This document shows positions 512 to 20,389 of a DNA stretch of 27,169 bases, in pieces. Position 1 is the stretch's first letter. Each line of letters opens with the position of its first letter. Location: positions 1-27,169 of IMG/VR virus record IMGVR_UViG_3300021963_006787, one strand, 5' to 3'. The translations under genes and the position numbers were made by a program. The notes beneath the pieces are model-generated. The model saw only the letters and a program-made list of their open reading frames with translations. It was not told where the DNA came from and did not search any database. The DNA is from a virus.

Positions 512-919
512 TTATTTTTTAAGAGGTTCTTTTACACCATCATCCCCATCCATTGCATCATGTACCGAATTTAATTGGTCTACTGCCAAAGTGATTTGAG
601 AATACATCCAAGAGTCTAAAGTCTGTCCTTCAGACATTCTTTGTGAAATCATATTAGCATAATCGGCAATTCTTTCAAGTTGCCCCATTGCCATTTCATT
701 TAATCCTGCTATTGTTTCCTCTGGTGAAGAATTATCATCACCTTCATTGATTTTAGTTTTAAGGAGTTCAGTCATTTTATTAAATACCTGCTCTCCACCA
801 TCTTCACCTAAACGATATGCTCCGCCTAATTTTTCGTATATTTGGATTTTATGTTTCATTGGAATATTCTTTTCTGCTAATTTATTCCAAATTTTAGGAT
901 GGGTTACTTCGAATTTCAT
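512..919 (-). CDS. Conserved phage protein of unknown function
   Basis: This encodes 135 residues, soluble, with no signal peptide or membrane segment. The N-terminus (MKFEVTHPKIWNKL, KIQIYEKLGGAY) is followed by an acidic linker around residues 60-68. The helical C-terminal half contains MGQLERIADYAN and LDSWMYSQITLAVDQLNSV. That C-terminal pattern (QL..IA..A, then W.QS.I..A.D.L.SV) is one I recall from small proteins of marine T4-like phages, where it remains uncharacterised; no search was run. The 37-nt gap before it is unusually long for this side of the window and holds a weak promoter-like sequence, so it may begin its own transcript with the two genes after it. Confidence 0.7.
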   Translation of the reverse strand: MKFEVTHPKIWNKLAEKNIPMKHKIQIYEKLGGAYRLGEDGGEQVFNKMTELLKTKINEGDDNSSPEETIAGLNEMAMGQLERIADYANMISQRMSEGQTLDSWMYSQITLAVDQLNSVHDAMDGDDGVKEPLKK

Positions 920-945
920 ATATATTTTATCTTATTTTACCAATA

Positions 946-975
946 TAAATATATTTTTATTTAACTTTAATCAAA
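946..975 (-). promoter_or_regulatory. Possible Bacteroidota-type promoter (weak)
   Basis: On the minus strand TTTG (975-972) is followed after 18 nt by TATATTTA (953-946). The Bacteroidota primary-sigma consensus is TTTG, about 19-21 nt, TAnnTTTG, so the -7 box has one mismatch (A for the final G). It lies in the 37-nt gap before the 135-residue gene, with the -33 part inside the end of the glycosyltransferase gene. The A/T richness makes chance matches likely. Confidence 0.3.
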
Positions 976-2045
976 TCGTTCTGATATTCTTTTAACGAAT
1001 TTATTTTTATTTTAAATATATCCCATTCCATATCACCTAATTCACCACTATCTTTTAATATAGATGGCAATTGGAATATCAATTGTATATTTTCATTTGT
1101 TAATAAATTAGCATCAAATTCTACAATCACATCATTAAATAATACAGGGTAGCCATCAAATGCCACATTTGAACAATATGGCTCTACTATATTATGAATG
1201 TAATCGGTTTGGTTAATTATGTTAAATCCAATATTATATTTTGGCGATGGGGTTGGTTTGTGGTTTTCATCAAATATAGGGTCTGTACCAAACTTCCTAA
1301 CATAGATTTTTCTAGTCTTTTCCATTTGCTCTCTATAACCATCGTTTTCAATTCCCACTCCTTTTGTCCACTTATGTCCTCTTTGTGTAAAATGATAAAC
1401 TAAAGCATCTCTACTCTGAATAAAGTTAAATCCAGCCAATGCCATTCTCGTAAACAAGTCACTATCTTCATAACCATATGGGGCATACTTAGTATCATGC
1501 CCACCAAGCTTATCAAAGTATTCATCTTTTAATAGAAACCAAGGTGCAAATATTCCTTCACTTACCCCACCTTCTACTTTATCACAAAATTCAGTGAATA
1601 GAGTTTCATTAAATTCGTTTGGATATAATCCGGCATCAAATATATGTTTCTCTTTTCCAGGCGGGTGTAATGGTGGTTCAACGCAAGTACCGCATACCAC
1701 ATTACCTTCATTTATATGTTTTAAAATGTTATCAAAGAAGTTCTTATGAACAATCATATCAGCATGTAGTATACCGATAATCTTACCACTTGCTTCTTTA
1801 AAACCTTTATCATATAAAATGGTATGCCCAATTCTATTTTGTAATAGATGTACTATTGTATTTTTATCAGTCAAAGATGTCATCCATTCTTTTGTACCAT
1901 CCTCGCCACCATCATCAAATAGAATAACTTCTATTTCGTCTGAAATACTTCTTACTGATTTATAAATTAATTTAAGGTATTCCAAATTATTATAAGATGG
2001 AATTACTACTGATATATCTTTTAGTGTATACATTTTATTCTCCAT
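957..2045 (-). CDS. Glycosyltransferase family 2 (GT-A) with C-terminal extension
   Basis: This encodes 362 residues. Residues about 11-230 form a GT-A domain: SVVIPSYNN (12-20) is the nucleotide-binding strand, FDDGGEDGT (43-51) the second acidic motif, GILHADM (91-97) sits at the DxD metal site, and GYEDSDLFTRM (191-201) carries the ED pair that usually supplies the catalytic base. FTQRGHKWTKG follows as a likely acceptor or C-terminal motif. The last about 110 residues are not recognised. Such enzymes move a sugar from a nucleotide-sugar donor to an acceptor. The acceptor is unknown. It is the last gene of the glycan block and its start overlaps the preceding glycosyltransferase gene by 11 nt. 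Confidence 0.9.
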   Translation of the reverse strand: MENKMYTLKDISVVIPSYNNLEYLKLIYKSVRSISDEIEVILFDDGGEDGTKEWMTSLTDKNTIVHLLQNRIGHTILYDKGFKEASGKIIGILHADMIVHKNFFDNILKHINEGNVVCGTCVEPPLHPPGKEKHIFDAGLYPNEFNETLFTEFCDKVEGGVSEGIFAPWFLLKDEYFDKLGGHDTKYAPYGYEDSDLFTRMALAGFNFIQSRDALVYHFTQRGHKWTKGVGIENDGYREQMEKTRKIYVRKFGTDPIFDENHKPTPSPKYNIGFNIINQTDYIHNIVEPYCSNVAFDGYPVLFNDVIVEFDANLLTNENIQLIFQLPSILKDSGELGDMEWDIFKIKINSLKEYQNDLIKVK

Positions 2046-2724
2046 TTACTCCGTGAATTATGTGTCTATCCCAACCAATATGTGTTACATATGATTCCAA
2101 AAATCTCATTGCTATTCTACCTCTCCTACGATACTCCATTGAAATATCACATTCCAATGTAACACCACCACTCAATTCAGCAGGAGTTATTCTCTCACAC
2201 CCATCGTATCCATTTGGTAATTCTTTCCAATCACTCAATCTCTTTAAGCCCGGATTCAAACTGAAACCATTCCATATACCGGCGTACTTAACTAATACCA
2301 TCTTCAACCCATCCAATTCATACACTCCCTCTTCCCAAGGATGTGGCAATGTTGTATCATCAATACCTCTTAACCAAACTTGTAGTATATTTTCATCTGC
2401 TTCTAACACCTTCATAGAATCTTCGATGAATGATGGTTTTAAAAATTCCCAATCTTCTTCCATATGAAAGATGTATTCGGTATCCACCATTGAGTATGCC
2501 GCATCAATTGATTTAATTTGAAACAACTTTGGGTCATTGTATATGACCTCAATTGGAAATTCATATTTTGTTTTTACAAAATCATTACAGCCAAAGTTCA
2601 TTCCATCATCTATAATAATAAAACGCTTTAGTGGATATGTGTTGAATTTGAAAAAACTATCCAATGTCTTTTCTAACAAATCAGCTCTATTACAAGCTGT
2701 TAGTACTACCGTAACTTCTTTCAT
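2035..2724 (-). CDS. Glycosyltransferase family 2 (GT-A)
   Basis: This encodes 229 residues. TVVLTACNRADLLEKTLDSF (5-24) is the typical GT2 start, FIIIDDG (35-41) the second motif, and HMEEDWEF (87-94) occupies the metal-binding DxD region with Glu-Glu-Asp. No membrane segment is visible, so it probably acts in the host cytoplasm. The start is chosen because the conserved N-terminal strand begins at residue 4. That start lies 35 nt inside the preceding gene, the longest overlap in the window, and both reading frames are clearly real in the overlap. The donor and acceptor are unknown. Confidence 0.88.
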   Translation of the reverse strand: MKEVTVVLTACNRADLLEKTLDSFFKFNTYPLKRFIIIDDGMNFGCNDFVKTKYEFPIEVIYNDPKLFQIKSIDAAYSMVDTEYIFHMEEDWEFLKPSFIEDSMKVLEADENILQVWLRGIDDTTLPHPWEEGVYELDGLKMVLVKYAGIWNGFSLNPGLKRLSDWKELPNGYDGCERITPAELSGGVTLECDISMEYRRRGRIAMRFLESYVTHIGWDRHIIHGVNGE

Positions 2725-3604
2725 AAAAATTTTTTAATTCGTTTCTAAAATTATCCGTTGCTATTTTCGTAAATTCTGCCTTTCTATTTTTTGATGATAT
2801 AAAAGATTTTACAGTTTCATTCGGTCTTTGTGTATAACTTTCAGCTATAACTAAATTTTCAATTATAAACTGAGATATGTAATCGTTTTGAGATTTCATA
2901 ATATTCATACATTCTGTAACATATGTATCTTCTAATCCGTAATGTCCAAATGATTCAGGTATACCAGTCTTTCTCAATAATTCTCCACTTAGGCAAGTAA
3001 ACCAACCTCCTGCAAATTTAATTGATTGAATTTCTTTAACACCAACCTCACCGTATTCAGGCAAAGTATCTTCATATACATCTGCTCCTTCGTGGTAATT
3101 TAAAGGTTGATTCCAAAATCTTTCATTTACAATCACATCCCATGTGTTATCCCATTGTTTAACAAATTGTGGAGTTACTATAAAATTATCTATCCCACCC
3201 TCTTTTAACATTTTAAAAGCAGATGACACATAAAATAGGGTAGTATCTTTGAATGTAAAATCACAATCTAACCATATAAAGAAATCAGCATCTGGATTGT
3301 TTTTTAAACTATATCTTCTTTGAGAAACACATCCTAATATTTCGGATTCAGTTTCAATTCTTAATTCGTATTCACACCAACCTAAATACTTTTTACACAA
3401 CTCTGCACTTCTTTGCCATACATAATCTTTCGGTAGAAATGATTCTTCCCAATTAGTTAATTCATCTGAAAGACACATAGTAACTTCTACTTTGTAATCT
3501 ATATCTCTATCTCTAAATACTGAATTTCTTTTCAACATATTTAAAGTCAATGCCAAATCTTCTAACTCTTGTGGCATTGCAAATATTGTTATAACTCCTT
3601 TCAT
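2690..3604 (-). CDS. GT-A type glycosyltransferase
   Basis: This encodes 304 residues. The N-terminus (MKGVITIFAMPQELEDLALT) resembles the first strand and helix of GT-A enzymes. DFFIWLDCDFTF (108-118) carries a clear DxD (Asp113-Cys-Asp115) for metal and nucleotide-sugar binding, and HYGLEDTYVT (221-230) has the downstream Glu-Asp pair expected for the catalytic base. FAGGWFTCLSGELL between them fits the acceptor-site region of GT2-like enzymes. The sequence is more divergent than its neighbours, so the exact family is uncertain. Its ATG overlaps the stop of the preceding gene by one base (TAATG), and its own end lies under the next glycosyltransferase. Confidence 0.8.
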   Translation of the reverse strand: MKGVITIFAMPQELEDLALTLNMLKRNSVFRDRDIDYKVEVTMCLSDELTNWEESFLPKDYVWQRSAELCKKYLGWCEYELRIETESEILGCVSQRRYSLKNNPDADFFIWLDCDFTFKDTTLFYVSSAFKMLKEGGIDNFIVTPQFVKQWDNTWDVIVNERFWNQPLNYHEGADVYEDTLPEYGEVGVKEIQSIKFAGGWFTCLSGELLRKTGIPESFGHYGLEDTYVTECMNIMKSQNDYISQFIIENLVIAESYTQRPNETVKSFISSKNRKAEFTKIATDNFRNELKNFYERSYGSTNSL

Positions 3605-4332
3605 TATCTTATAATTTGTCCGTCAGCATGTTGCATTTCGGTGTTATGAATTTCTACATCTACATTGGTTTGAGTCAAATGCCATTTTAATAAATACTCA
3701 TTTCTCAACCCACTATCTTGTTCCGGCCATCCTCCTTTTAAAAAGTGAACATAATCTCTATCGTAATTTAAATACCAATCAATCTTTGAATAAACCGATG
3801 AATAGATTCCCATATTAGTTTTATTACCAATAGCAAATACATCATAGTACCCTCTATGCTTAACTCTTTCATCCGTATCCCAATTCCACACATGAAGTTT
3901 ATTCATATCTAAACTTTCTAAATCTAAAGTTGATGGTTCATATCTTAAATCAAATCTACTCCTAATATAAACATCATAATCCTTTTCAACCAAATCGTAT
4001 GCTTTTGAAACGGAATACCACATCGATTTACAATTTTGAAGTGGTTGTCTCCAAATAGGGTCAACTATACCTTTATTATCAAATATGATTGGTTCTTCAA
4101 ATGAAGATTTCGTTGTACCAAACATACCAATGATATCATTTATATAACCTTCACTATATTTGTATACTTGCTTAGGTCTATCTTTAAAAAATTGAGTTGC
4201 CTCAAAGTTTCCACCTCTCCATGTGTGTAGGTAGATATCACAATCGTACTTATCTAAATAAGATTTTTTTAATTCATCGTATCCTAAATAATAATTTCTA
4301 GGTTGACCTGATAATAATATTGCTACTTTCAT
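3604..4332 (-). CDS. Glycosyltransferase-like protein with N-terminal LLSGQPR motif
   Basis: This encodes 242 residues. It opens with VAILLSGQPRNYY (3-15), a motif I recall in glycosyltransferase-like proteins of phages, giant viruses and bacterial surface-glycan clusters. CDIYLHTWRG (31-40) and YDVYIRSRFDLRYE (119-132) follow in the same order as in those proteins; the R.RFDL segment is the likely counterpart of a DxD site. No membrane segment is seen. The context is strongly glycosylation: genes on both sides are sugar or phosphodiester enzymes. Start and stop are joined to neighbours by a 4-nt and a 1-nt overlap. The transferase role is inferred from motif and context, not proven. Confidence 0.7.
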   Translation of the reverse strand: MKVAILLSGQPRNYYLGYDELKKSYLDKYDCDIYLHTWRGGNFEATQFFKDRPKQVYKYSEGYINDIIGMFGTTKSSFEEPIIFDNKGIVDPIWRQPLQNCKSMWYSVSKAYDLVEKDYDVYIRSRFDLRYEPSTLDLESLDMNKLHVWNWDTDERVKHRGYYDVFAIGNKTNMGIYSSVYSKIDWYLNYDRDYVHFLKGGWPEQDSGLRNEYLLKWHLTQTNVDVEIHNTEMQHADGQIIR

Positions 4333-4763
4333 TTATAATCATTTATGTAATCTGAACAAATTCCAACACAAGCATCCAAATCATCATTATATATTTCAGG
4401 CATAACAGCGATACTACCTTTGATTGGTTGCTTGCCTGGATATGCCCAAATAACACCCATTGATGTAAGTGCTACCGTATCTTCTTGATGCCAGAAATAG
4501 TTAAATCCACCTATTGCGTTAAACCATTCCATTGCTTCTACATTCTTACAATGTACCCATAAGTGTTCGTATCTTTCGTTTAACCAATGTTGCGTTATAC
4601 CATACTGCGGTTCATCGTGTCCCAAATATAAAACACCCTCAATCATCCATACATCTATTTCTACATTGTAGCCAGTATGAATTGCTTCATCGATATATTC
4701 TGGATGATTTTCGTTTTGTGGTATTTTACCATTTAAGTTTCCTCTATGTGATATTAGTATCAT
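4329..4763 (-). CDS. GDPD/PI-PLC-like phosphodiesterase
   Basis: This encodes 144 residues with the hallmark motifs of glycerophosphodiester phosphodiesterases: ISHRGN (4-9, catalytic His6), NVEIDVW (33-39, metal ligands Glu35 and Asp37) and LYLGHDEP (45-52, second catalytic His49). LWVHCKN and AVMPEIYNDDL follow, the latter probably giving the last acidic ligand. At 144 residues it is much shorter than the usual 230-300, so it is a compact TIM-barrel or partial-barrel form. No signal peptide is seen, so it acts in the cytoplasm or on virion parts. Family members cleave glycerol-phosphate or similar phosphodiesters. In this place it may act on a phosphodiester-linked glycan, but the substrate is unknown. 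Its end overlaps the next gene by ATGA. Confidence 0.82.
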   Translation of the reverse strand: MILISHRGNLNGKIPQNENHPEYIDEAIHTGYNVEIDVWMIEGVLYLGHDEPQYGITQHWLNERYEHLWVHCKNVEAMEWFNAIGGFNYFWHQEDTVALTSMGVIWAYPGKQPIKGSIAVMPEIYNDDLDACVGICSDYINDYK

Positions 4764-4764
4764 A

Positions 4765-5634
4765 TTAATATTCTTCTCCTTCTATAACTTTTCTTTCATC
4801 CCCTCTTTCTGAATTATGATTTTCCGATTTGATTGAATGATACATATGTACTCCAAACGCTCCTATTTCTTCTGAACGCTTTACTCCACCCTGATTAAAA
4901 GCAACATTAAACAAATCATGTGCTCCACCCCAAGTTGAATTTGGATTCAATACCATACCAACTATTTGATTACAAATTGCCAATACATCATTTGTAAATA
5001 CATGCAAATTATAATCGTTTTGAATGTTATGTGATACAAATCTAATTGATGGGTCAGTATCCGGTTTACCATTTGATGAATACTCCTTATAAGGGTCAGT
5101 TAATGTTCCAGGAGTATGTGGATGGTTTGTACCACCCCTATAATATGTATCTTTTGGAGTTATTTCAAATGTAGAATTATAACATAGATAATCTATTTCA
5201 GTTTGAGCTACTTTTGATTTTGCATTGTAAATTGGTAAACTCCAAATTGAGTTAACATCCGTATGCTTATTGAATACTTTATTAAAATTACGAGATACGC
5301 AATAATCTGATTTTAATAAAAGTGTTTTACCTGGACTATTTAATCCATTTTCTATTAACATTGAAAACTGATTGATTAAATCTTGTGTTAATGTTTTTGG
5401 ACAATCTAATTCTTCGTATGGAAATACTGCTAAATTCTGAATATAATCATTTATATCCAATTCTTTTATTTTATCCTGCAACCAATCGTTATCAATTGTA
5501 TGCGAATGGGTATTATATATAATAAACCAATCCCAAACTATTGGAGTAGTTTGATTACTTAATAAAGACCTTAAACTATACTCGGCATGTTCTTTTGTAA
5601 GTGTTGCATGAGTAGTAAATATACAATTGTTCAT
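4765..5634 (-). CDS. Unknown protein in glycan cluster, possibly GT-A-like
   Basis: This encodes 289 residues. The N-terminus (NNCIFTTHATLTKEHAEYSLRSL) followed by WDWFIIYNTHS resembles the first two strands of a GT-A domain, and KTLLLKSDYCVSRNF (about 103-117) sits where a DxD region would fall. No clear DxD or ED pair is present. The C-terminal half contains GGAHDLFNVAFNQGG and ends in an acidic, Glu-rich tail. No membrane segment or signal peptide is visible. It is joined by a 1-nt gap and a 1-nt overlap to genes of the glycan block, so a sugar-related role is likely, but I do not recognise the family with confidence. Confidence 0.6.
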   Translation of the reverse strand: MNNCIFTTHATLTKEHAEYSLRSLLSNQTTPIVWDWFIIYNTHSHTIDNDWLQDKIKELDINDYIQNLAVFPYEELDCPKTLTQDLINQFSMLIENGLNSPGKTLLLKSDYCVSRNFNKVFNKHTDVNSIWSLPIYNAKSKVAQTEIDYLCYNSTFEITPKDTYYRGGTNHPHTPGTLTDPYKEYSSNGKPDTDPSIRFVSHNIQNDYNLHVFTNDVLAICNQIVGMVLNPNSTWGGAHDLFNVAFNQGGVKRSEEIGAFGVHMYHSIKSENHNSERGDERKVIEGEEY

Positions 5635-6245
5635 TACTTTAAATTACTATAAATGATTTTATCATTTTCTTTTATTTGATTAAATTCGGATAATCCACTT
5701 GTTTGTTCAGATTCTCCACCCATTTTCCAATTTATGATTTGATAATTTGGCTTTCCACTTTTGTCAAATAACCAATCATCTCCATAATGTACTTTTAATG
5801 ATTCGGGTATTTGTTTATAGGAATTTTTATGAATAAACATAAGACATCCATAGCAATTTGTACGAAATAATGTTCTTTCTATTTCAGGAATTCCACCATT
5901 ATATTGCCAACAACTAACACCTGCTCCTATCAATCCATTTTCTTCAGTTATATAATCATATACCAAATCAATAACTCCCCATTCGGTTTCTACATCATCA
6001 TTTAAAATAAGTAGTTTATCGTATTTAGCTAAATTTACACCTTTATTCCAAGCAGGATTTACATATGTATTTTTATCTTCTTTGATATGAATCACTTTTG
6101 GAGCAACAATATCTAAATGAGTTTGTTCACTATTATCTATTAAAATGATTTCACCTACCAATGGATGCTCAGATAATTCATAAAGCATTTTTCCATCTCT
6201 AAATGATTCACATTTCCACATTGTAGGGATTATAACTGAAATCAT
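5634..6245 (-). CDS. Glycosyltransferase family 2 (GT-A), compact
   Basis: This encodes 203 residues. SVIIPTMWK (3-11) and EIILIDNS (32-39) are the first two GT2 motifs; NPAWNKGVNLAKYDKLLILN (63-82) is the helix-strand leading to the metal site DDVETEW (83-89). A later HYGDDWLFDKSG may carry the catalytic acidic residue. It is shorter than common GT2 enzymes but holds the full catalytic core. No membrane helix is present. It shares a TAATG stop-start junction with the next gene and a 3-nt gap with the methyltransferase before it, which suggests coupled expression. Substrates are unknown. Confidence 0.87.
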   Translation of the reverse strand: MISVIIPTMWKCESFRDGKMLYELSEHPLVGEIILIDNSEQTHLDIVAPKVIHIKEDKNTYVNPAWNKGVNLAKYDKLLILNDDVETEWGVIDLVYDYITEENGLIGAGVSCWQYNGGIPEIERTLFRTNCYGCLMFIHKNSYKQIPESLKVHYGDDWLFDKSGKPNYQIINWKMGGESEQTSGLSEFNQIKENDKIIYSNLK

Positions 6246-6248
6246 ATT

Positions 6249-6785
6249 TTATTTTTTAACTCCCCAAAAATATAAATCATTTGGGTGTACATCTCTTGCA
6301 AAAAATTCATATTCAGAAAAATACTTATCCACATCTATTGCACTTCTTACATCTGCTTCTGTCAGATTCATATAATAATCATTCTCAATTTTAGAAGTGA
6401 ATGGTGAATCTTGTGGAGATGTTCTTCTAGTACCATGTTCAGGTCTACCAGTTGTTGCACAACTAAATAAAAATACACCATTTGGTTTTGTTAAATTTAC
6501 TGCATTTTGAATAGTTAAGTTCCAAAATTCATCATGCTCAAAACATTCTGTTGAGATTACAACATCAAATCCGTTATCATCTTTAAATTCGTGTCCCCTA
6601 CATATAATATCAACATTGTTTCCTTCTCCAATATCAATTCCAATGTATTCATAATCTTCAAATGCAAAACGATTGTTTCCATTGATATCCAATGAACCAA
6701 TATCTAATACTCTAACTCCTTTAAATTTTTCAGGAAATCTATCTCTTACCGATGATATAAATTCTTGTTGTTCTCTGTGTGCCAT
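6249..6785 (-). CDS. Class I SAM-dependent methyltransferase
   Basis: This encodes 178 residues with a Rossmann-fold methyltransferase core. VLDIGSLDINGNN (26-38) is the SAM-binding motif I, YIGIDIGEG (47-55) ends strand 2 with the acidic residue that holds the ribose, and FDVVISTECFEHDEFW (73-88) is motif IV/post-motif. PNGVFLFSCATTG is the motif VI strand. These features fit the methyltransferase 11/25-type enzymes that often sit in glycan clusters and O-methylate sugars. It lacks an NPPY or similar motif of N6-adenine DNA methyltransferases, so DNA methylation is less likely. It follows the HAD-nucleotidyltransferase fusion by 2 nt. The acceptor is unknown. Confidence 0.85.
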   Translation of the reverse strand: MAHREQQEFISSVRDRFPEKFKGVRVLDIGSLDINGNNRFAFEDYEYIGIDIGEGNNVDIICRGHEFKDDNGFDVVISTECFEHDEFWNLTIQNAVNLTKPNGVFLFSCATTGRPEHGTRRTSPQDSPFTSKIENDYYMNLTEADVRSAIDVDKYFSEYEFFARDVHPNDLYFWGVKK

Positions 6786-6787
6786 TT

Positions 6788-8164
6788 TTATTTGTTTTTA
6801 TAATTTTCTAAATAATATTTTAAATCTTCTGGTGTTCCCAATCCCCACATTTTTTCGATGTTGAATGTTTTAATCTTTTTACCATCTGCAATTGCTTCAT
6901 TGAAAGTTGGACAAGTATAGAATTCATTGTTAGTTCTGATATTCTTACTTATCATTTGTTCTGCATACTTTACATAATCAGAACCCTTAGCCCAATAATA
7001 AACTCCTACCGTTGCAATATCTGAAATTGGATTCTTCTCTGCTACTTCGGTAACATATCCATATTCATCTACCTTAGCGAATGACCATTTTGGATGTGTT
7101 GCTGTAAATGTTAAAATACCCCCATCAACTTTTTGTTCAATCATCTTATACATAAACTCATTCGAATCCCACTCTACAAATTGGTCGGAGTTTGCCATAA
7201 CCAATGGAGCATCGTTATCGATGTGTTCTTTAGCTAATAAAGTTGTACAAGCAGCTCCTTCGGTTAAGCCATCAACTTCTACAATTTTACAATTTGGTGT
7301 AATTAAATTTAACAAAGTATCTAAGTTATACTTCTCTCTATGTTCTTTTTGTACTACATAAATGTATGTAGCTTCTATATTAAGGTTATCAACAACAACC
7401 TGAATCATTGGTTTATTTTCAACATCAATTAATGGTTTAGGAAATGTATAACCTGCTTGTTGGAATCTACTTCCAGCTCCTGCCATTGGAATTAATACAT
7501 TTAATTTACCACCTTGCCATTTTGGAATACTCATACTCTTTTTTGTTTCCTCTAATTTACGAATAATTTTTGATAATACCAAATCTTTTGGAGAATCTAC
7601 TCTCAAAACATTTGCTCTACTTCTACTTGCAGCAAGTAATCCATGTGGTGAATCTTCTACAATAAGAGTTTCTTCTGGCAACACACCCATCATACTCATT
7701 GTCTTCCAATACATTTCAGGATGTGGTTTAGAGTTCTTTACATCCTCATTAGAGATGATTAAGTCCATATACTCAATTATACCTATCTTTGCTAACATAA
7801 CCAACACAGACCTTCTAATTGAGTTTGAAGCACATGCCAACTTATAACCTCTATTGCGAAGTTCTTTAAACAACTCAATCTTTTCTAAATCAGGTTGTAA
7901 TTCTGATATTGCTTCAATTGTAAGTTGTTGCTTTCTATTCCAAACTGTTTGGTATGTGTTTGGATGCAATCCTTTATTTTGTGTAAGTAATTCTAACTTT
8001 TGATTGGTTTTCAAACCATCGTAGATTGATAAATGCTCTGCTTCTGAAATTACATACTTATCACTTTGAGCGATTTCCCATAAAGCTTTGTTTAAAGTAT
8101 CAAAATGAATTTGTTTAGCTTCTACCAGTACCCCATCTAAATCAAATATTATCAATTTCGCCAT
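6788..8164 (-). CDS. HAD phosphatase - sugar nucleotidyltransferase fusion
   Basis: This encodes 458 residues in two domains. Residues 1-205 are a HAD phosphatase/mutase of the beta-phosphoglucomutase type: IIFDLDGVLVE (5-15, Asp8/Asp10), a helical cap, ASNS (112-115), Lys146 in NSKPHPE, and VEDSPHGL (169-176). Residues about 220-458 are a GlmU/RfbA-type nucleotidyltransferase: VLIPMAGAGSRF (223-234), FPKPLIDV (241-248, Lys243) and ANSDQFVEWD for metal binding. One chain could therefore process a sugar phosphate and load it on a nucleotide as a donor for the neighbouring glycosyltransferases. The exact sugar is not readable. The start overlaps the previous gene by 23 nt. There is no frameshift or stop between domains, and a short Lys/Ser linker joins them. 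Confidence 0.9.
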   Translation of the reverse strand: MAKLIIFDLDGVLVEAKQIHFDTLNKALWEIAQSDKYVISEAEHLSIYDGLKTNQKLELLTQNKGLHPNTYQTVWNRKQQLTIEAISELQPDLEKIELFKELRNRGYKLACASNSIRRSVLVMLAKIGIIEYMDLIISNEDVKNSKPHPEMYWKTMSMMGVLPEETLIVEDSPHGLLAASRSRANVLRVDSPKDLVLSKIIRKLEETKKSMSIPKWQGGKLNVLIPMAGAGSRFQQAGYTFPKPLIDVENKPMIQVVVDNLNIEATYIYVVQKEHREKYNLDTLLNLITPNCKIVEVDGLTEGAACTTLLAKEHIDNDAPLVMANSDQFVEWDSNEFMYKMIEQKVDGGILTFTATHPKWSFAKVDEYGYVTEVAEKNPISDIATVGVYYWAKGSDYVKYAEQMISKNIRTNNEFYTCPTFNEAIADGKKIKTFNIEKMWGLGTPEDLKYYLENYKNK

Positions 8165-8771
8165 AGTAACTATTTTGTTTTTCTTGTCTATCTATATTTT
8201 TGATATGTCTGATACAATACACTTCATCTACTGGTAAATTAGTATATGTTTCGATTCCTTTAATTTGCTCATGTACTTTACTTTCCCAATATAACTTTTT
8301 GTCATTTTTGTAAATACGAGTTTGAAAATCAGGAAAATTAATATACCCTTTTTCATTTTGCTTCCACCCCCACTTTTGAATATGCTCTTCGGTTATACCA
8401 TTTACAATATTGATACGAGGTACTAATATTAAATCAGCATCATTATTATCCAATATATCTTCTAAATTATGAATGAAGTTTACATCCAAATGCTCATCCG
8501 CATCCAATTGGAATATCCATTCACCTTTGCAATATGAGTTAAGAAAGTTTTTCCAAGCAGCAAAGTCGTGATTAAATTCAGATTCGATTAAAGTAATCTT
8601 ATCTGCACTTGCTTGTACTTCTAAATATTCGATTAGTTCTGACGATGCCTTTGGCGTATCTAATAATACAACGATTTCCGAATTCTCTCCTTTATAATTC
8701 CAAAGTTGAGTAAGTAAAGTTATCGTTTCTTCAAATTCATTACAAACTGTAATTGCGTAACTTAATTTCAT
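8142..8771 (-). CDS. Glycosyltransferase family 2 (GT-A)
   Basis: This encodes 209 residues. LSYAITVCNEFEE (3-15) and EIVVLLDTP (32-40) are the first motifs, FNHDFAAWKNFLNSY (66-80) is the conserved helix, and EWIFQLDADEHL (84-95) carries a clear DxDE metal site (Asp90, Asp92). The VNEFEE plus DADE pattern is typical of the branch related to lipopolysaccharide-core enzymes such as WaaE/KdtX (family knowledge; not searched). TRIYKNDKKLYWESKVHEQI fits the C-terminal part of that branch. No membrane segment is seen. Its end lies 23 nt inside the HAD-nucleotidyltransferase gene, so donor synthesis and transfer may be translationally coupled. Confidence 0.88.
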   Translation of the reverse strand: MKLSYAITVCNEFEETITLLTQLWNYKGENSEIVVLLDTPKASSELIEYLEVQASADKITLIESEFNHDFAAWKNFLNSYCKGEWIFQLDADEHLDVNFIHNLEDILDNNDADLILVPRINIVNGITEEHIQKWGWKQNEKGYINFPDFQTRIYKNDKKLYWESKVHEQIKGIETYTNLPVDEVYCIRHIKNIDRQEKQNSYYGEIDNI

Positions 8772-8776
8772 GTAAC

Positions 8777-9250
8777 CTATTTATTTTTAATTTGGGATTT
8801 TATATCAATAGATGTTACAGTTTTAGTTGATGGTGTAAGTTTATCTACATCCATATTCAATTCTATAACCTTTGATAATCCACTTAATTTATATGTTCTA
8901 TATGCTTCATTTGTAATTATTGGAACTTTACTAACCACTTTGGCGTAAAATGCTTTAGCACCACCTTTCATTTGTAATTCATCTGTTTCCTCATTTACAA
9001 ATTTACCAAAAAATTTTTTAATTAATTCCGGTCTAACATTAGATACTTTTACACAATGTACTATATCTTTTGCTTTTGAAACAAACAATGTGTATATGAT
9101 TGGGGCAGTTGTTTCTGTAAATCTACCTCTAGTACCATCCACATATTCATATTCCTTTATCAGATAGAAGCTAGCCCTAACCATTTGACCAGGAGTAATT
9201 TGATTTCTATCATCTATAAATTTACGATATATGGGATTATAGCTCTGCAT
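8777..9250 (-). CDS. Hypothetical phage protein inside glycan cluster
   Basis: This encodes 157 residues with no recognisable enzyme motif. The N-terminal region (QSYNPIYRKFIDDRNQITPG) is followed by a probable beta-rich part including QMVRASFYLIKEYEYVDGTR and APIIYTLFVSKAKDIVHCVK, then a Lys-rich C-terminus without hydrophobic helices. The pattern of a PxxYTLxxSxxxDxxHxVxxxxV strand pair is one I loosely recall from small uncharacterised phage proteins, but I cannot name the family. It lies between two glycosyltransferase genes with a TAATG overlap on one side and a 5-nt gap on the other, so it is co-transcribed with them. Its role is unknown and need not be in glycan synthesis. Confidence 0.62.
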   Translation of the reverse strand: MQSYNPIYRKFIDDRNQITPGQMVRASFYLIKEYEYVDGTRGRFTETTAPIIYTLFVSKAKDIVHCVKVSNVRPELIKKFFGKFVNEETDELQMKGGAKAFYAKVVSKVPIITNEAYRTYKLSGLSKVIELNMDVDKLTPSTKTVTSIDIKSQIKNK

Positions 9251-10518
9251 TATTTTTCTACCATTTTTAACTTAGGTAACTTCATTGGTTGAAGTTTTGG
9301 TTTCTTATTATAAATACCATATTGAGTTAAAATGGTATCAAATAGTTCAGTCATTTTTGATAAACTAAAGTTTTGTTTGTTTTGTTTACCCAATTGAAAT
9401 GATTCTATTTTATACTTATCATAATTTTTATAAACATCTTTTATAATTTGTAGTGCTTTTGAAATGTTTACATTAAACCATTTAGATTCTTTCAATAAGA
9501 AATCATCTGCGGCTGATTCATGTACTTCTTTCAACTCACCTTCCAACAATACTGCACCACTCTTTAAGAAATCCAAATGCCCACTCCATCCACTTACAAT
9601 AACAGGCTTACCTGTCAAACTGAATTCTAATAATGGTCTACCGAATCCTTCACCTTTTGTGAAATTTAACATTGCTTTTACCTTTGGATGTTCATATAAT
9701 CCGTTCATTTCAGATTGAGTTAAATCACCATGTAAAAGATAAACAGGAACTTTTTTGTAATCAGAACCTAATACTGCTCTAATTTTTTTAACCATATCTT
9801 CTCTATCTCTCACACTAAATCCAGCTGAAGATGTTTTTAAAATCAATGCAGGTTTTACTTTTTCATTTTTGAATGCCATTGCAAATGTTTTAATCATCAT
9901 TCCTACATTCTTTCTATCCTCACCCAAATCGCCTCTCAACCAATGTCCTACAAATAAGAATGCGAAATCTTCTTTTACTTTATCCAATTCCGTAATATCC
10001 GCAACATGCTCCGTTCCGAAATCATTCTCATCAAATCCTTCAAATAAAACCTCAACTGGTTTTTGTATTCGAATTTGTCTAATTACCTGATTTGTATTTC
10101 TATCTGTTTCATTGTAAACAGTTCCGATTAAACTTAATTTAGCATGCTCCGATGGAGTAATTATTAAATCCATTCGATTGCATCCTTCAATCCAATTCAT
10201 CGCACATGCCGTTGTTTCAATTGCAGCTGTAATACCTACATTGTAATAACCCAATGGTTGAAATTCGTTTGGAACTGTAACTTGCATATACACATCCGGC
10301 TTCTCTTCGATTTTTCCAATCATATTATCAAGAATCCATTTATGAAATTGATTATCATAATTTAATGCATCCATTGGAGTTTGCCCCCAACGAGTACTAA
10401 TTACTTTAATTTCAAACTTATCTAATTTATATAGAGATTGTAATAAATCTCTCGCATGGTCGCCATATCCACTTCTCGTTGCTACTGGCGCCTGAAATAC
10501 TAATGTTGGTTTGCTCAT
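9250..10518 (-). CDS. GT-B glycosyltransferase (GT4-like)
   Basis: This encodes 422 residues with a two-domain GT-B layout. The N-terminal acceptor domain starts TLVFQAPVATRSGYGDHARD (5-24), where the Gly-rich SGYG loop is usual for the family. The C-terminal donor domain has FLFVGHWLRGDLGEDRKN (187-204) and the retaining-enzyme E-x7-E motif KGEGFGRPLLEFS (288-300, Glu290 and Glu298), followed by TGKPVIVSGWSGHLDF. Family members transfer sugars from nucleotide-sugar donors with retention of configuration. No membrane segment is visible. It is separated by one base from the next GT-B gene upstream; the two could act in successive steps. Donor and acceptor are unknown. Confidence 0.9.
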   Translation of the reverse strand: MSKPTLVFQAPVATRSGYGDHARDLLQSLYKLDKFEIKVISTRWGQTPMDALNYDNQFHKWILDNMIGKIEEKPDVYMQVTVPNEFQPLGYYNVGITAAIETTACAMNWIEGCNRMDLIITPSEHAKLSLIGTVYNETDRNTNQVIRQIRIQKPVEVLFEGFDENDFGTEHVADITELDKVKEDFAFLFVGHWLRGDLGEDRKNVGMMIKTFAMAFKNEKVKPALILKTSSAGFSVRDREDMVKKIRAVLGSDYKKVPVYLLHGDLTQSEMNGLYEHPKVKAMLNFTKGEGFGRPLLEFSLTGKPVIVSGWSGHLDFLKSGAVLLEGELKEVHESAADDFLLKESKWFNVNISKALQIIKDVYKNYDKYKIESFQLGKQNKQNFSLSKMTELFDTILTQYGIYNKKPKLQPMKLPKLKMVEK

Positions 10519-10519
10519 A

Positions 10520-11902
10520 CTATAACTCTATTAATTTAAATCTTTGTTTTGGTTTCCAATTTGCAAATGCGCCTTCCATACCTTCTACCAATGCATCACA
10601 CATTGCTTCTCTACTCAATTTACCTTCTCCTAAGAAATGCTTTCTACCTTTTAAAGCTGCTTTTCTTCTTTCTTCTTTACCCATAGTGTACCATTGCATA
10701 ATCAATGGAGATACATCTTCAAAATCAACTCTATCATCAAAGATATATGGAGTAGGAACTGAACCTGTTGTTGAACGAACTGGCCAAATTGGTGTAACCC
10801 AATCTCCCCAAACATGCGTATTTTTTTTATGTTTATCATGCAAAGAACCAATCTCTACATAATCATCCGCTGTTAGTAATTTACCACTCCCTTTCTCTCT
10901 AAAACCACACTGGTCTTGCAATCCACCTGTTACAGTTACAATGATAGGAGTTCCTGCCATTACTGATTCTGCGGTTGCTAATCCAAATCCTTCGTTTGAT
11001 GCAATATTGATTGTTACATCTGACATATTGTATAACCAATTCAATTGCTCTTCAGAATATCGATTGTTGGCGAATATTACATTTGTTTCAGGCAAACAAC
11101 AATGTTCAATTGTAGTTGGTAAATCAGTACCATGCTCTTGAACAGGTTCGGTATGCATTAATAAACATACACTATCTCTTTTTTCTTCAGGTAATGCTTC
11201 AACAAATTTATTAAATGCTAATATAACATCTACTGGTTGTTTTCTTCTGATATTACGATTTGACCAATATAATACAAATTCATAGTTCTTATCACCAAAA
11301 ATACTTTTCTTAAAATCTTCGGGAACATCAACCGGCTTATATAATTCCGAATTGATACCATGTGGTACATAGCTTACTTGCCAATCTTCTGGTGTATTCC
11401 AATGTTTTTCTTTATTCCAACCATACACTCTCTTAGTGATACCATATGTTTGTTTTGAAATACATCCAATCCAATCACAACTTTCGTAATAATCTCTATT
11501 GTATTTTGGGTCTGGCAAATCATCCCAGATGTGGTAGAAGAATAATGGAGTAGTTTGTCTGATTTCATGTTCCATATCATACAACCAAATCCAATATCTT
11601 GGGTCAGTAAAGTGTAAGATAGCATCTGGCCTTTCAATCATCAATAATTGACGAATAACATCTGCATTACCATATCCATCGAATGGATATATTTTTACAT
11701 TTGCATCTGCTACGCCCGTTCTAGCTCTTACATCTTCGTTTAAATCAAACACTTTACCAGCTTCTGGGTGTTTGATTGCTGCTCCTAATTGTACCCAATC
11801 GTATTTATCAACTGTTCCTAATACTAATTGTTTGGAAACATTGGCTATACCACTAGCCATTCGTAAATCATCGGAAAGTAACAGGATTTTCTTTTTTGCC
11901 AT
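10520..11902 (-). CDS. GT-B glycosyltransferase (GT4-like)
   Basis: This encodes 460 residues. KKILLLSDDLRMASGIANVS (4-23) is the N-terminal GT-B strand and loop, and PHGIN (180-184) marks the usual interdomain hinge. FVLYWSNRNIRRKQPVDVIL (209-228) is the donor-domain start. SNEGFGLATAESVMAGTPII (302-321) holds the E-x7-E motif (Glu304, Glu312), with GGLQDQ after it, a classic GT4 signature. It is the first gene of the glycan block in transcription order, 15 nt after the small ribbon-helix-helix gene. The leader AAGAAACAAAAAAAGTT before its ATG has no Shine-Dalgarno site. A second minus-strand open frame inside it (11374-11637) is a frame shadow. Confidence 0.92.
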   Translation of the reverse strand: MAKKKILLLSDDLRMASGIANVSKQLVLGTVDKYDWVQLGAAIKHPEAGKVFDLNEDVRARTGVADANVKIYPFDGYGNADVIRQLLMIERPDAILHFTDPRYWIWLYDMEHEIRQTTPLFFYHIWDDLPDPKYNRDYYESCDWIGCISKQTYGITKRVYGWNKEKHWNTPEDWQVSYVPHGINSELYKPVDVPEDFKKSIFGDKNYEFVLYWSNRNIRRKQPVDVILAFNKFVEALPEEKRDSVCLLMHTEPVQEHGTDLPTTIEHCCLPETNVIFANNRYSEEQLNWLYNMSDVTINIASNEGFGLATAESVMAGTPIIVTVTGGLQDQCGFREKGSGKLLTADDYVEIGSLHDKHKKNTHVWGDWVTPIWPVRSTTGSVPTPYIFDDRVDFEDVSPLIMQWYTMGKEERRKAALKGRKHFLGEGKLSREAMCDALVEGMEGAFANWKPKQRFKLIEL

Positions 11903-11917
11903 AACTTTTTTTGTTTC

Positions 11918-12115
11918 TTAAAATTGTGAACCACTAATTTGTAACTCTTTGTGGTCGTTCACTTGTGTTCTAAATTTTTCGTTTTTTACATAAAGGTCTA
12001 AGGTTCTATTAACGAGCTTTTGAAAGTTGATACCACCTTTAATTGTAGCCATCTTAAAATCCTCATCATATAACTCTTTTATAACCTTAACCGTAGTTAA
12101 TTTTAGGTTTGCCAT
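11918..12115 (-). CDS. Small ribbon-helix-helix-like protein, putative regulator
   Basis: This encodes 65 residues. The order is a short basic strand (LKLTTVKVIKEL, 4-15), then DEDFKMATIKGGIN and FQKLVNRTLDLYVKNEKFRT. This matches the strand-helix-helix pattern of MetJ/Arc/CopG proteins, in which the strand pairs in a dimer and enters the DNA groove. Similar 60-70 residue proteins occur in T4-like phages of aquatic bacteria (recalled). The gene stands between the replication and the glycan genes, the place where a regulator would separate two programmes, but its target is unknown. Its ATG is preceded by a 10-nt element also found before nrdB. The assignment rests on pattern only. Confidence 0.68.
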   Translation of the reverse strand: MANLKLTTVKVIKELYDEDFKMATIKGGINFQKLVNRTLDLYVKNEKFRTQVNDHKELQISGSQF

Positions 12116-18333: not shown

Positions 18334-19560
18334 TTATCTTCCCACTTCTTTTAAATAGTTGTTTTTCATTTGTTCCCATGTCATTCCGATTGCATCTACA
18401 TAAAATAGAACTTCCGGTTTGATTTTACCCTCTTCAAACAATTTTTCATATCGTTTGATTGCTTTATCTTTCCACCATTTTACAGTGTACTCATTTCCTT
18501 TTGCAAATTTCTCTTTAAGAATTAAATCCTTTTCTTCGATTTTAGAACAAAGAAACTCATTACCATTCTCATACATTTGTGCAAAGTATACACCTCTTTG
18601 GAATCCATGGTCATAAGCGTTACCTTTGATACCCAACTCTTTAAAAATAGCCTGAATAATCTTTTGTTTAATTCCACTTACAGGTCCATTCTTTTCGTAT
18701 CCCATACTCTCACCATTTCTTTCTCTTTCTCTTGTGATATGTTGTTCATACCACTCCTTTTTATTTTCCTTTAACCATTGATGCCAAGGGTCATATACTT
18801 TATCATCGGGCTTTGTAGAAATCTTACCTTTAGATTCTCCCAATGTTTTGAAATGAGGAATACCATTGTATTGTGAGTGAATACCATATAGGGATGTTGT
18901 ACCTACTCCAATCAATGGATTATTATATTTCTTTTGCCAGTAATCTCTAACTTCAGGAGATGTTGCTAATGCGGCAATTAACTTACCGCCCAAAAAGTTA
19001 TATCCAAATGGTTGGGTTGATACGATGGTAGTTGCAATTGTAGTACAATTTAATTTACCATTCTTAAACTTATCTTCTTTTTGCCATCCAATATACTCAT
19101 CTCTTACACCCAACGATGTAATATCAGAACCTAAACAAATCTGTCCTAATATCTTCCCACTTACTCTATCTTTTACATAACACTTTACATTACGACCTGG
19201 ATTAGCTTGAAACTCCATAGTATGAATTAATCTACGAATCTCAGTCCAACGAGTAGATTGTTTAGCATCATCATCTACAATTTCTACATAAGGGTCTATT
19301 GCTTGTATTTCAGCAATAGTTAATTCCTTATTCATTATATCCGTAGGTTTCCACAACGAATCATAATGCGATTGCAACACAGGTAACTTTTTCATATTAC
19401 CAATTAAATCTTCGTTCCACTCCATCCACTTTTTGTAGAGAGTTTGTTCTTCAACTGACATTGTTCTTAGATAATCCAAGTTCTCAATGAACTTTCGTTT
19501 CATATCTTCGTAGTTGAATTCTTCTGCTTTGGCTGTTTCGCCGGTTTCCCAAAATTTCAT
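18334..19560 (-). CDS. DUF4338 / DruA-like protein
   Basis: This encodes 408 residues. The core is residues about 104-250: RRLIHTMEFQANPGRNVKCY (109-128), GKILGQICLGSDI (135-147), RDEYIGW (153-159), STQPFGYNFLGGKLIAAL (181-198) and FKTLGESKGKI (237-247). This order, with GRN.k..v.D...G.ilG...LgSD, then YIGW and tQPFGyNfLGGKL, agrees with DUF4338 proteins as I recall them, the family of DruA of the Druantia defence system. The core resembles a GNAT-like fold, as do the two Mom-like neighbours. The helical N-terminus and the Lys-rich C-terminal 150 residues are extra parts. A base-modification or DNA-handling role is inferred from position; biochemistry is unknown. Confidence 0.65.
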   Translation of the reverse strand: MKFWETGETAKAEEFNYEDMKRKFIENLDYLRTMSVEEQTLYKKWMEWNEDLIGNMKKLPVLQSHYDSLWKPTDIMNKELTIAEIQAIDPYVEIVDDDAKQSTRWTEIRRLIHTMEFQANPGRNVKCYVKDRVSGKILGQICLGSDITSLGVRDEYIGWQKEDKFKNGKLNCTTIATTIVSTQPFGYNFLGGKLIAALATSPEVRDYWQKKYNNPLIGVGTTSLYGIHSQYNGIPHFKTLGESKGKISTKPDDKVYDPWHQWLKENKKEWYEQHITRERERNGESMGYEKNGPVSGIKQKIIQAIFKELGIKGNAYDHGFQRGVYFAQMYENGNEFLCSKIEEKDLILKEKFAKGNEYTVKWWKDKAIKRYEKLFEEGKIKPEVLFYVDAIGMTWEQMKNNYLKEVGR

Positions 19561-19564
19561 ATTG

Positions 19565-19597
19565 TAAATATACTAAAAATATTCGATATTACCAAAA
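19565..19597 (-). promoter_or_regulatory. Possible promoter before the DUF4338/polymerase genes
   Basis: On the minus strand TTTTG (19597-19593) is followed after 20 nt by TATATTTA (19572-19565), one mismatch from the Bacteroidota TAnnTTTG box. It overlaps the end of the second Mom-like gene and the 28-nt gap before the DUF4338-like gene. If real, transcription would begin almost at the ATG (19560), giving a very short leader and a route to express the polymerase without the Mom genes. Confidence 0.4.
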
Positions 19598-20389
19598 TTT
19601 AGTTGTTATTTCGTTTTCAGGCGATATCGTAGTGTGGTGTGTAATTCCTTTATTATATTCTCTTGTATCCTTTGGATAAGGTTTAATTTCATGCTTTAAT
19701 CGTTTGATTAAATCTTTCTTTTCTTTCTTATCTTGTGCAAGAATCTGAATGTATCTATGTTTAGGTGGTTCTTCTCTTCTCCAAAACTCTTTGTAGCCCT
19801 CTTTACCAATTTCTTTTCTAAGATGTTCTAAGTTACCACTACCCCAATTATTGAATACACTTCTACTATGAATCCATTTGTAAGGATTGTTAGATAATGA
19901 AATACCATAATTTGGCATTAAGGCGATATCAGTATTTAACCCCTGATAAATCCAATTGGTTGCTTGGTAAATACCTCCTAAATGGTCTTGTCCGTTATCG
20001 GCGTATGAAAGGAGTACTTTAATATTCTTATCGTTCTCCCTAAACCATTTAAATGATTGTCCTAATGCATATGATTCTATATTAGCACCATATCCATCAT
20101 CACAATAAAGACGAGTAAGTTCTAAAATATTATCTTTTGTAAGTCCTTCACAAACTGATGTAGATGCTCTTGCTCCAACGGGGAATCCATAGATTAAACA
20201 ACCTATGAGTTTACTATCTCCGAATTGATTTTCGGATTCAGTTTTATAATATATGCCTAATGCATATCTACACATTGTCCAAGCGTGAGTATAATGTTTT
20301 TTAACAATTATATCTTTCGCTATATCTTTTGAAATTGGTGATAGATATACTTTCGATACATCACAATATAACTTATTAGCTTCTTTCAA
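19589..20389 (-). CDS. Mom-family DNA-modification protein (second copy)
   Basis: This encodes 266 residues. It matches the Mom adenine-modification family: AKDIIVKKHYTHAW (24-37), KLIGCLIYGFPVG (60-72), LELTRLYCDDGYGANIES (89-106) and LLSYADNGQDHLGGIYQATN (126-145), then KHRY near the C-terminus. Mu Mom has a GNAT-like fold and converts adenine in DNA to an N6-acylated (methylcarbamoyl) form that blocks restriction enzymes. This copy retains the SYxD and H..G.IYQAtNW signatures. It begins with TTG (20389-20387), since the N-terminus MKExNKLYCDxSK aligns with the first copy and no ATG is available before residue 39. The start overlaps that gene by 14 nt. It has a longer, His/Thr-rich tail than its partner. 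Confidence 0.82.
   Translation of the reverse strand: MKEANKLYCDVSKVYLSPISKDIAKDIIVKKHYTHAWTMCRYALGIYYKTESENQFGDSKLIGCLIYGFPVGARASTSVCEGLTKDNILELTRLYCDDGYGANIESYALGQSFKWFRENDKNIKVLLSYADNGQDHLGGIYQATNWIYQGLNTDIALMPNYGISLSNNPYKWIHSRSVFNNWGSGNLEHLRKEIGKEGYKEFWRREEPPKHRYIQILAQDKKEKKDLIKRLKHEIKPYPKDTREYNKGITHHTTISPENEITTKFW

Follow-up and report, generated by a model that had tools for sequence, protein, structure and literature searches.

We found that positions 957 to 11902 of the window, a 27,169-base IMG/VR record of a freshwater virus of bacteria that is probably a fragment of a larger genome, hold an invariant glycosyltransferase core joined to a hypervariable cassette. On balance, we read this block as a late, phage-encoded glycan-assembly operon that would glycosylate a virion protein directly in the cytoplasm. 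Its 13 ORFs are all intact and overlap or leave gaps of at most 5 nt (Table 1). The initial annotation had described a twelve-gene run; the run is real, but its ORF count is 13. Glycan synthesis fits 12 of them, namely two retaining GT-B and four GT2-type glycosyltransferases, three unclassified proteins, a methyltransferase, a HAD-nucleotidyltransferase (HAD-NTase) fusion and a mini-GDPD, the exception being the gp2-like ORF 8777-9250. The block adjoins replication genes, and it goes beyond chance because the same position is kept in relatives.

Table 1. Features of the block and its flanks, all on the minus strand of the window
Feature	Positions	Description
Promoter-like element TATATATTTATATATAAA	12127..12150	Block head; ORF 11918-12115 starts about 18 nt downstream
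ORF	11918..12115	65 aa; first gene behind the promoter-like element; kept in some relatives only
GT-B1	10520..11902	460 aa; retaining GT4-type glycosyltransferase; invariant core gene
GT-B2	9250..10518	422 aa; second GT-B glycosyltransferase; invariant core gene
Possible internal promoter TATGGTATTTATA	9300..9330	Inside the GT-B2 3' end, about 60 nt before 8777-9250
Probable T4 gp2-like protein	8777..9250	DNA-end protector fold in predicted structure; inside core
GT2-type glycosyltransferase	8142..8771	Pfam 5e-12; last conserved core gene
HAD (beta-phosphoglucomutase type) + sugar-phosphate nucleotidyltransferase fusion	6788..8164	Putative donor module, part 1
SAM-dependent methyltransferase	6249..6785	phrog_32762 3e-56; Pfam Methyltransf_23; variable cassette
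GT2-like protein	5634..6245	Pfam 3e-4, below curated cut-off; variable cassette
Unclassified, GT-like by position only	4765..5634	No family match; 9 related loci, among block genes
Mini-GDPD	4329..4763	144 aa, unusually short; putative donor module, part 2
Unclassified	3604..4332	phrog_13607 7e-22 (unknown function)
Unclassified GT-A-like protein	2690..3604	WLDCD (DxD-like) motif; often last cassette gene
GT2 glycosyltransferase	2035..2724	Pfam 4e-11; variable cassette
GT2 glycosyltransferase	957..2045	Pfam 5e-22; variable cassette; last block gene
Second promoter-like element	936..960	24 nt before 512-919; PWM 14.8
ORF	512..919	Conserved; closes the block in relatives

Across about 80 relatives, all viral contigs, the first genes of the block are nearly constant: GT-B, GT-B, the gp2-like gene and one GT2. 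GT-B1, for which we found 308 related stretches, matched Pfam above the cut-off (3e-9); the Pfam match of GT-B2 was sub-threshold (0.0018), and this protein was recognized through the glycosyltransferase family phrog_2170 (2e-23). Both enzymes carry in the C-terminal domain the E-x7-E motif of retaining, GT4-like GT-B transferases (E304/E312 in GT-B1, E290/E298 in GT-B2), invariant in the alignments of relatives, which bears out the two GT-B genes first annotated. Of 83 loci, many of them incomplete, 49 have a homologue of the GT2 gene at 8142-8771. The best PDB match of GT-B1 is chlorovirus B736L (E 2e-12 and 8e-13), to which GT-B2 is weakly matched, and PDB profile searches with the two proteins listed B736L and GT4 enzymes and no T4 glycosyltransferase. 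We rejected the argument that similarity to B736L proves capsid glycosylation; the similarity does not settle the target, because the T4 alpha-GT and RB69 ORF003c, which act on DNA, also match B736L (PMC6024577). The remaining core gene, 8777-9250, had been listed as the one unknown of the glycan block and is probably a gp2-like virion protein rather than a glycan enzyme. Its AlphaFold model (pLDDT 82.6) retrieved several gp2/DNA end protector proteins from BFVD by Foldseek, with E values of 5.7e-4 (the best, prob 1.0) and 3e-3; against the PDB the model gave no match with E <0.001, and a second look with VIA stayed at Z <5.

Comparison of the block among related phages, which the initial annotation had proposed, separated this core from a distal part with 59 gene families in 32 loci, sugar aminotransferases, an epimerase, acetyltransferases and methyltransferases among them. 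Cassette sharing was low (median Jaccard 0.17-0.29), even between loci whose GT-B1 proteins share at least 92% identity. In the window, Pfam matches agreed with the four GT2-type enzymes and the methyltransferase annotated at first. The proteins at 2690-3604, 3604-4332 and 4765-5634 gave no Pfam or NCBIfam match and no classification by hhalign against GT2 members, and PDB sequence searches with the first and the last returned chance-level matches only; for these three ORFs, the label "GT-like" describes position, plus the DxD-like motif in 2690-3604. Homologues of 2690-3604 occur in 16 of 32 cassettes, and 3604-4332 belongs to the same family as the cassette clusters c50 and c29 (hhalign 100% and 97%).

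The HAD-NTase fusion and the GDPD-like enzyme of the initial annotation both held. The former has Pfam matches to HAD_2 and NTP_transferase (1e-29 and 2e-11) as well as PDB matches. The latter carries the HR-E-(ExD)-HD set on a TIM-barrel fold, and its catalytic HR, E, E-x-D, HD, K and H residues are invariant in 44 sequences; its AlphaFold model (pLDDT 94.5) reached a VIA Z of 10.6 to the T. maritima GDPD, in a list dominated by GDPDs. A HisF barrel, raised by weak Foldseek scores for the model alone, was rejected when the VIA second look resolved to GDPD. The NTase part lies near a GDPD in 70 of 80 phage loci and in 50 of 54 bacterial and archaeal loci, and this co-occurrence in phage and cellular loci therefore suggests a host-type donor module in which GDPD is the predicted partner of HAD-NTase. 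In most bacterial surface-polysaccharide loci with the NTase, identity was 60-76%. A literature search for the GDPD and NTase pair found nothing relevant; the conserved pair seems to mark an uncharacterised donor pathway, present in SAR11 and Prochlorococcus, and is possibly new donor chemistry. A heptose donor was considered because phosphoheptose isomerase genes adjoin the GDPD in S-SM2, and we left this sugar uncommitted because the HAD domain is of the beta-phosphoglucomutase type.

In the 209-kb relative G001, a ATATTTATA-type motif precedes the tail sheath, tail tube, head-tail adaptor and other virion genes, with 34 intergenic sites on the coding strand versus 4 on the other, and the association with virion genes was confirmed in the relative G002. 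A PWM trained on the G001 virion-gene sites outside the block scored 19.5 at the head of the block in the window, versus 13.2 for the best of 1745 antisense control pieces. This head element, which is a sequence motif and not a mapped transcription start, exceeded the 99% control level in 23 of the 24 relatives having the 11918 ORF and was weaker in the clade lacking that ORF (about 10 of 56 relatives over threshold). The window holds the motif at only one other intergenic place, before 512-919, where the element is present in 6 of 6 relatives; none of the virion type was found before the replication genes of the window. At the possible internal promoter TATGGTATTTATA, the codons TAT-GGT-ATT-TAT are identical in 58 of 58 relatives, with neighbours mostly at a synonymous share of 0.55-0.98, and the PWM score is 7.3, below the 99% control level. 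Scanning the block for sigma-70 and terminator consensus sequences gave chance-level results. From these motifs, we infer that the block would be expressed late, from a virion-gene-type promoter.

Whether large glycan clusters in T4-like aquatic phages function or are stuffer has been a question since 2010, when Sullivan et al. (PMC3037559) left both options open for cyanophage LPS clusters. For the present block, stuffer or decaying host DNA without function seems very improbable: the catalytic residues of GT-B1, GT-B2 and GDPD are invariant across relatives, the same core recurs in many loci with its promoter-like element kept, and no ORF is broken. The conserved core, the kept catalytic residues and the virion-type element speak for a functional block and suggest the virion as its target.

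A simple hydropathy scan found no clear transmembrane segment in the block, the lone stretch above threshold lying inside the HAD domain, in line with the initial statement that no gene has a clear membrane anchor. Flippase-like proteins (at least 7 TM) were found in 0 of 90 phage loci of at least 12 kb versus 16 of 42 bacterial loci, and neither PF02397 nor PF00953 was found in the window, G001-G005, Mel-JY01 or immuto, with controls positive. The block thus lacks the membrane flippase and membrane-bound transferases of GtrABC-type serotype conversion, and the phage genomes searched lack the initiating sugar-1-phosphate transferase of a lipid-carrier (Wzx/Wzy or Pgl-like) route; its soluble glycosyltransferases are of the kind expected for virion glycosylation. 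Host lipid-carrier enzymes could be borrowed. These absences support the cytoplasmic target first proposed and weigh against the rival reading, in which an infected host has its envelope (O-chain or capsule) glycosylated to block superinfection by other phages. The envelope reading has been published for the clusters of pelagimyophages (PMC7029224) and jumbo cyanophages (PMC7824862). In its favor here are the donor module common to bacterial surface-polysaccharide loci and the likeness of hypervariable cassettes to O-antigen loci. However, promoters of the virion-gene type would be active late in lytic growth, when a surface change is of little help, and we consider this target rather unlikely.

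A T4- or RB69-like glycosylation of the phage's DNA bases appears less probable still. GT-B proteins lie beside the replication module in the window and in RM378, the T4 and RB69 enzymes share a distant similarity to B736L, two Mom-type DNA-modification genes occur near the block, and PF00303 (the dCMP hydroxymethylase/thymidylate synthase family, the two being undistinguished here) is present in G002, G004 and immuto. However, PF00303 was not found in G001, the complete Mel-JY01, G003 or G005, and the first two possess the GT-B pair. The Mom genes, present in 9 of 20 records only and not found in G001, Mel-JY01 or immuto, all with the GT-B pair, were rejected as acceptor source. The promoter-like element of the block is of the virion-gene type rather than early, and to our knowledge ten or so transferases and sugar-modifying enzymes exceed the needs of any known DNA glycan. 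The initial target list (virion protein, DNA or envelope) is therefore narrowed, virion protein being preferred over DNA because of the promoter type and the PF00303 absences.

The block thus offers a swappable sugar-chain kit with a particle-gene-type signal; therefore, the phage's own particles are most likely to be sugar-coated, and with confidence slightly better than even we favor a virion protein over host surface or DNA as the target. In weighing this, we counted in its favor the gp2-like virion gene in the core and a distant GT-B2 relative between tail genes of Arthrobacter phage Kitkat, and against it the replication-gene neighbours here, the related GT-B gene among replication genes of RM378, the weaker head element in the clade without the 11918 ORF and the PF00303 genes of three relatives. 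More speculatively, cluster c8, a small protein found in the core of most relatives and ending in a Ser/Thr-rich tail that is shuffled, could be an acceptor.

Gene content supports what was initially suggested, a multi-step pathway that supplies its own activated donor and includes a methyl decoration. In the scheme that we infer for acceptor, sugars, transfer order, late expression and coat role, HAD-NTase and mini-GDPD would make or recycle an activated donor (an NDP-linked sugar or polyol phosphate), the same role being presumed in bacteria such as SAR11 and OM43, within their surface-polysaccharide loci. GT-B1, GT-B2 and the GT2 at 8142 would then build a constant inner glycan directly on cytoplasm-assembled protein, and cassette-specific glycosyltransferases and the methyltransferase would add a variable outer part, with recombination swapping cassettes to diversify the coat. 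More tentatively, freshwater T4-like phages may possess a "virion serotype" locus. This late operon, constant in its inner core and swappable in its outer cassette, would give a strain-specific particle sugar coat and share its GDPD/HAD-NTase donor module with abundant aquatic bacteria. If so, lake phage particles would differ by sugar coats much like bacteria by O-antigens, affecting adsorption, grazing and host range.

Among known systems, the cyanomyovirus "LPS" clusters of S-SM2, S-CAM9 and S-PRM1 (Sullivan et al. 2010, PMC3037559) are likewise runs of glycosyltransferases, epimerases and NDP-sugar enzymes in T4-like phages; as in our block, NTase/GDPD donor genes lie inside the run, with a HAD-NTase of about 60% identity over the full length in S-CAM9 and S-PRM1 and a mini-GDPD. 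They differ in genome position, no GT-B1 or GT-B2 relatives were found there, and a fixed core with a swappable cassette is not described in the part of PMC3037559 considered here. The moraphages, large freshwater phages with predicted Bacteroidota hosts, have four glycosyltransferase orthogroups in their core genome; the part of PMC12619734 considered describes neither an operon nor a cassette, donor module or promoter. Flavobacterium phage immuto and Microcystis phage Mel-JY01, relatives that are in culture and have a genome sequence, keep the order exonuclease, GT-B1, GT-B2, GT2 and methyltransferase/glycosyltransferases with small differences, whereas their GT-B1 is 44-51% identical, their cassettes are different (two DegT-type aminotransferases in immuto) and no gp2-like gene stands at that place. 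Virion glycosylation in mycobacteriophages, unlike our block, involves few glycosyltransferases and is not known to use a large swappable cassette. There, phage-encoded transferases glycosylate capsid and tail-tube subunits (Freeman et al. 2023, as cited in PMC12619734). Chloroviruses, although eukaryotic viruses, glycosylate their capsid in the cytoplasm with virus-encoded transferases, and their glycans also have a conserved inner and a variable outer part (PMC9614988); the chlorovirus protein B736L is the best PDB match of GT-B1. T4 and RB69 share GT-B transferases in a T4-like phage, but their DNA glycosylation needs hydroxymethylcytosine (PMC6024577), and two relatives with the GT-B pair gave no match to the synthase family. 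Judged by its genes, the block resembles the cyanophage "LPS" clusters and the mycobacteriophage systems for virion glycans.

The block comprises 13 open reading frames (ORFs), all on the minus strand with overlaps or gaps of at most 5 nt. The initial annotation had described a run of 12 genes; the run itself stands, and its gene number is corrected to 13. Family searches recovered the methyltransferase and HAD-nucleotidyltransferase fusion it had named, both GT-B proteins (E-x7-E motif invariant in each) and the four GT2-type proteins, one under the curated cut-off, while the further GT-like ORFs (2690, 3604 and 4765) gave no informative family match and are so called by position. As it had also observed, no clear membrane segment was found in any block protein.

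Coordinates of features in the window and in related records
Feature	Record	Coordinates	Description
Whole block	window (27,169 bases, virus record)	957-11902	glycan synthesis
ORFs 957, 2035, 8142	window	957-2045; 2035-2724; 8142-8771	GT2-type
ORF 5634	window	5634-6245	GT2-type, under cut-off
ORFs 2690, 3604, 4765	window	2690-3604; 3604-4332; 4765-5634	GT-like by position
GDPD-like	window	4329-4763	144 aa
ORF 6249	window	6249-6785	methyltransferase
HAD-NTase	window	6788-8164	HAD-nucleotidyltransferase fusion
gp2-like	window	8777-9250	putative virion protein
GT-B2	window	9250-10518	GT-B
GT-B1	window	10520-11902	GT-B
Leading ORF	window	11918-12115	65 aa, ahead of GT-B1
Closing ORF	window	512-919	conserved
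Mom-family pair	window	19589-21137; 18334-19560	adjacent DNA-modification genes (Pfam Mom, 7e-45 and 4e-44), adjoining a DruA-domain gene (PF14236, 5e-21)
c8	L012	13131-13544	small core-block protein
Beta-barrel protein	G001 (L092)	42686-45967	phage-encoded outer-membrane protein, CarboxypepD_reg domain, Bacteroidota-like signal peptide
APS-kinase-family protein and NifU/IscA-type Fe-S scaffold pair	G001 (L092)	48400-48846; 47030-47769	behind block
Ser/Thr-rich protein	G001 (L091)	25698-27182	494 aa; 60-residue stretch 78% Ser+Thr; no Pfam match
Hairpin and AATAAATA element	S-CAM9 (L261)	5640-5720	before first glycan-cluster gene

A scan with GT-B1 returned 308 related stretches, 80 of which were retained as loci. 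The comparison among related phages proposed in the initial annotation reveals a near-fixed order, exonuclease, GT-B1, GT-B2, gp2-like gene, (c8) and GT2, and strong differences in the genes that follow. The 32 loci with at least five genes in this variable cassette hold 59 cassette families, 24 of them seen once, and among locus pairs with GT-B1 at least 92% identical the median cassette-family sharing was only 0.29 (Jaccard). Some of these families are GT-B and GT-like proteins; others are NAD-dependent epimerase, RmlD-like reductase, DegT-type aminotransferases and hexapeptide acetyltransferase, alongside C-methyltransferase, FkbM and other methyltransferases, a 2OG-Fe(II) oxygenase and a kinase-aldolase fusion. 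The core gene previously left as the single unknown is now read as encoding a putative gp2-like virion protein, because its predicted structure (pLDDT 82.6) has several T4 gp2 or 'DNA end protector' proteins among its matches to viral models (best E 5.7e-4, probability 1.0); no PDB entry matched with E <0.001. The c8 protein, found in L012 and about 46 other relatives and absent from the window, has a conserved N-terminal part and a shuffled Ser/Thr/Pro/Gly-rich tail (30% Ser+Thr; proteome mean 13%), and is possibly a glycan acceptor.

The proposed GDPD-like enzyme is borne out, since all catalytic residues are kept in 44 sequences and the best alignments of its model (pLDDT 94.5) are to GDPDs of solved structure (Z 10.6 to T. 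maritima TM1621). Its gene occurs in 111 stretches of viral contigs. An NTase is present in 70 of 80 viral GDPD loci (within 2 kb in 61 of these) and within 3 kb in 50 of 54 bacterial and archaeal loci, frequently with the NTase again fused to HAD (60-76% identity in most). Inspection by eye showed GTs and NDP-sugar enzymes as the locus neighbours in SAR11, OM43 and a gammaproteobacterium, and flippase-like membrane proteins as well in the latter two. Cultured Synechococcus myophages likewise have both genes. We infer that the two genes constitute a donor pathway that phages acquired from their hosts. The NTase of some phages lacks the HAD part and is adjoined by a fusion of PRK/uridine kinase and class II aldolase (family c72; L036, L052, L145), a hint that the same donor may be reached by another route.

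In G001, a 209-kb relative with near-identical block content, a ATATTTATA-type motif is found upstream of genes, virion genes among them, at a distance of mostly 4-53 nt; intergenic sites number 34 on the coding strand and 4 on the other. Ten were sampled, and among the PHROGs names of their genes are tail sheath, tail tube, head-tail adaptor and virion structural proteins. When sites outside the block were used to train a matrix, it recovered the same pattern in the relative G002. Only two gene starts in the window have a site above every control (maximum 13.2), the block head (19.5) and the closing ORF (14.8), and none of its replication genes does. The site exceeds the 99% control level in 23 of 24 relatives with the leading ORF, which is first behind the element, and in about 10 of 56 of the clade lacking it. 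All 58 relatives compared share the same four consecutive codons at the GT-B2 3' end, before the gp2-like gene, where a further promoter-like site may lie. In Synechococcus phage S-CAM9, a single case, the first gene of the glycan cluster directly follows a hairpin of terminator type and an element similar to the T4 late promoter.

Proteins with at least seven predicted membrane segments occur in none of 90 phage loci of at least 12 kb, versus 16 of 42 bacterial loci, and searches of the window, the relatives G001-G005, Mel-JY01 and immuto found no initiating transferase (PF02397 or PF00953); the controls were positive. The glycan is therefore most likely assembled on a cytoplasmic acceptor, as the initial annotation favoured, unless host enzymes are borrowed. 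Together with predicted late-type control and a putative virion gene inside the core, the missing membrane steps incline us towards virion protein as the target. The best PDB match of GT-B1, chlorovirus B736L, is not decisive, because T4 and RB69 DNA GTs resemble it too (PMC6024577) and its own acceptor is unknown (PMC9614988). Similar phage clusters have been read in print as modifying the host O-chain (PMC7029224, PMC7824862), but the same absence of membrane steps and the predicted late-type control make a host-envelope target rather unlikely here. Modification of DNA, which PF00303 genes in G002, G004 and immuto would suit, seems more doubtful still, as none was found in G001 or complete Mel-JY01 and Mom genes are not consistent among relatives; found in 9 of 20 records searched, the latter are therefore independent of the block. 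Sullivan et al. (PMC3037559) left open function versus stuffer DNA for such clusters; we consider stuffer DNA highly improbable for this block, virion protein remaining our preferred target.

Outside the block, the window carries a replication module of T4 type, with genes for the clamp loader and sliding clamp, family B DNA polymerase, ribonucleotide reductase, a DnaB-type helicase and GroES. The nearest named relatives of GT-B1 are in Microcystis phage Mel-JY01 (51%) and Flavobacterium phage immuto (44%), and the host is likely a member of Bacteroidota. Glycan clusters in phages, like virion glycosylation, have been described before, and one report describes four core glycosyltransferase orthogroups in large freshwater Bacteroidota phages (PMC12619734). 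As far as the literature searched shows, the fixed core with a hypervariable cassette, the GDPD/HAD-NTase module spanning phages and aquatic bacteria, and the sequence-based indications of a promoter for such a block are new. In its variable cassette the block resembles an O-antigen locus, but it differs in sitting between phage replication genes and a conserved closing ORF.
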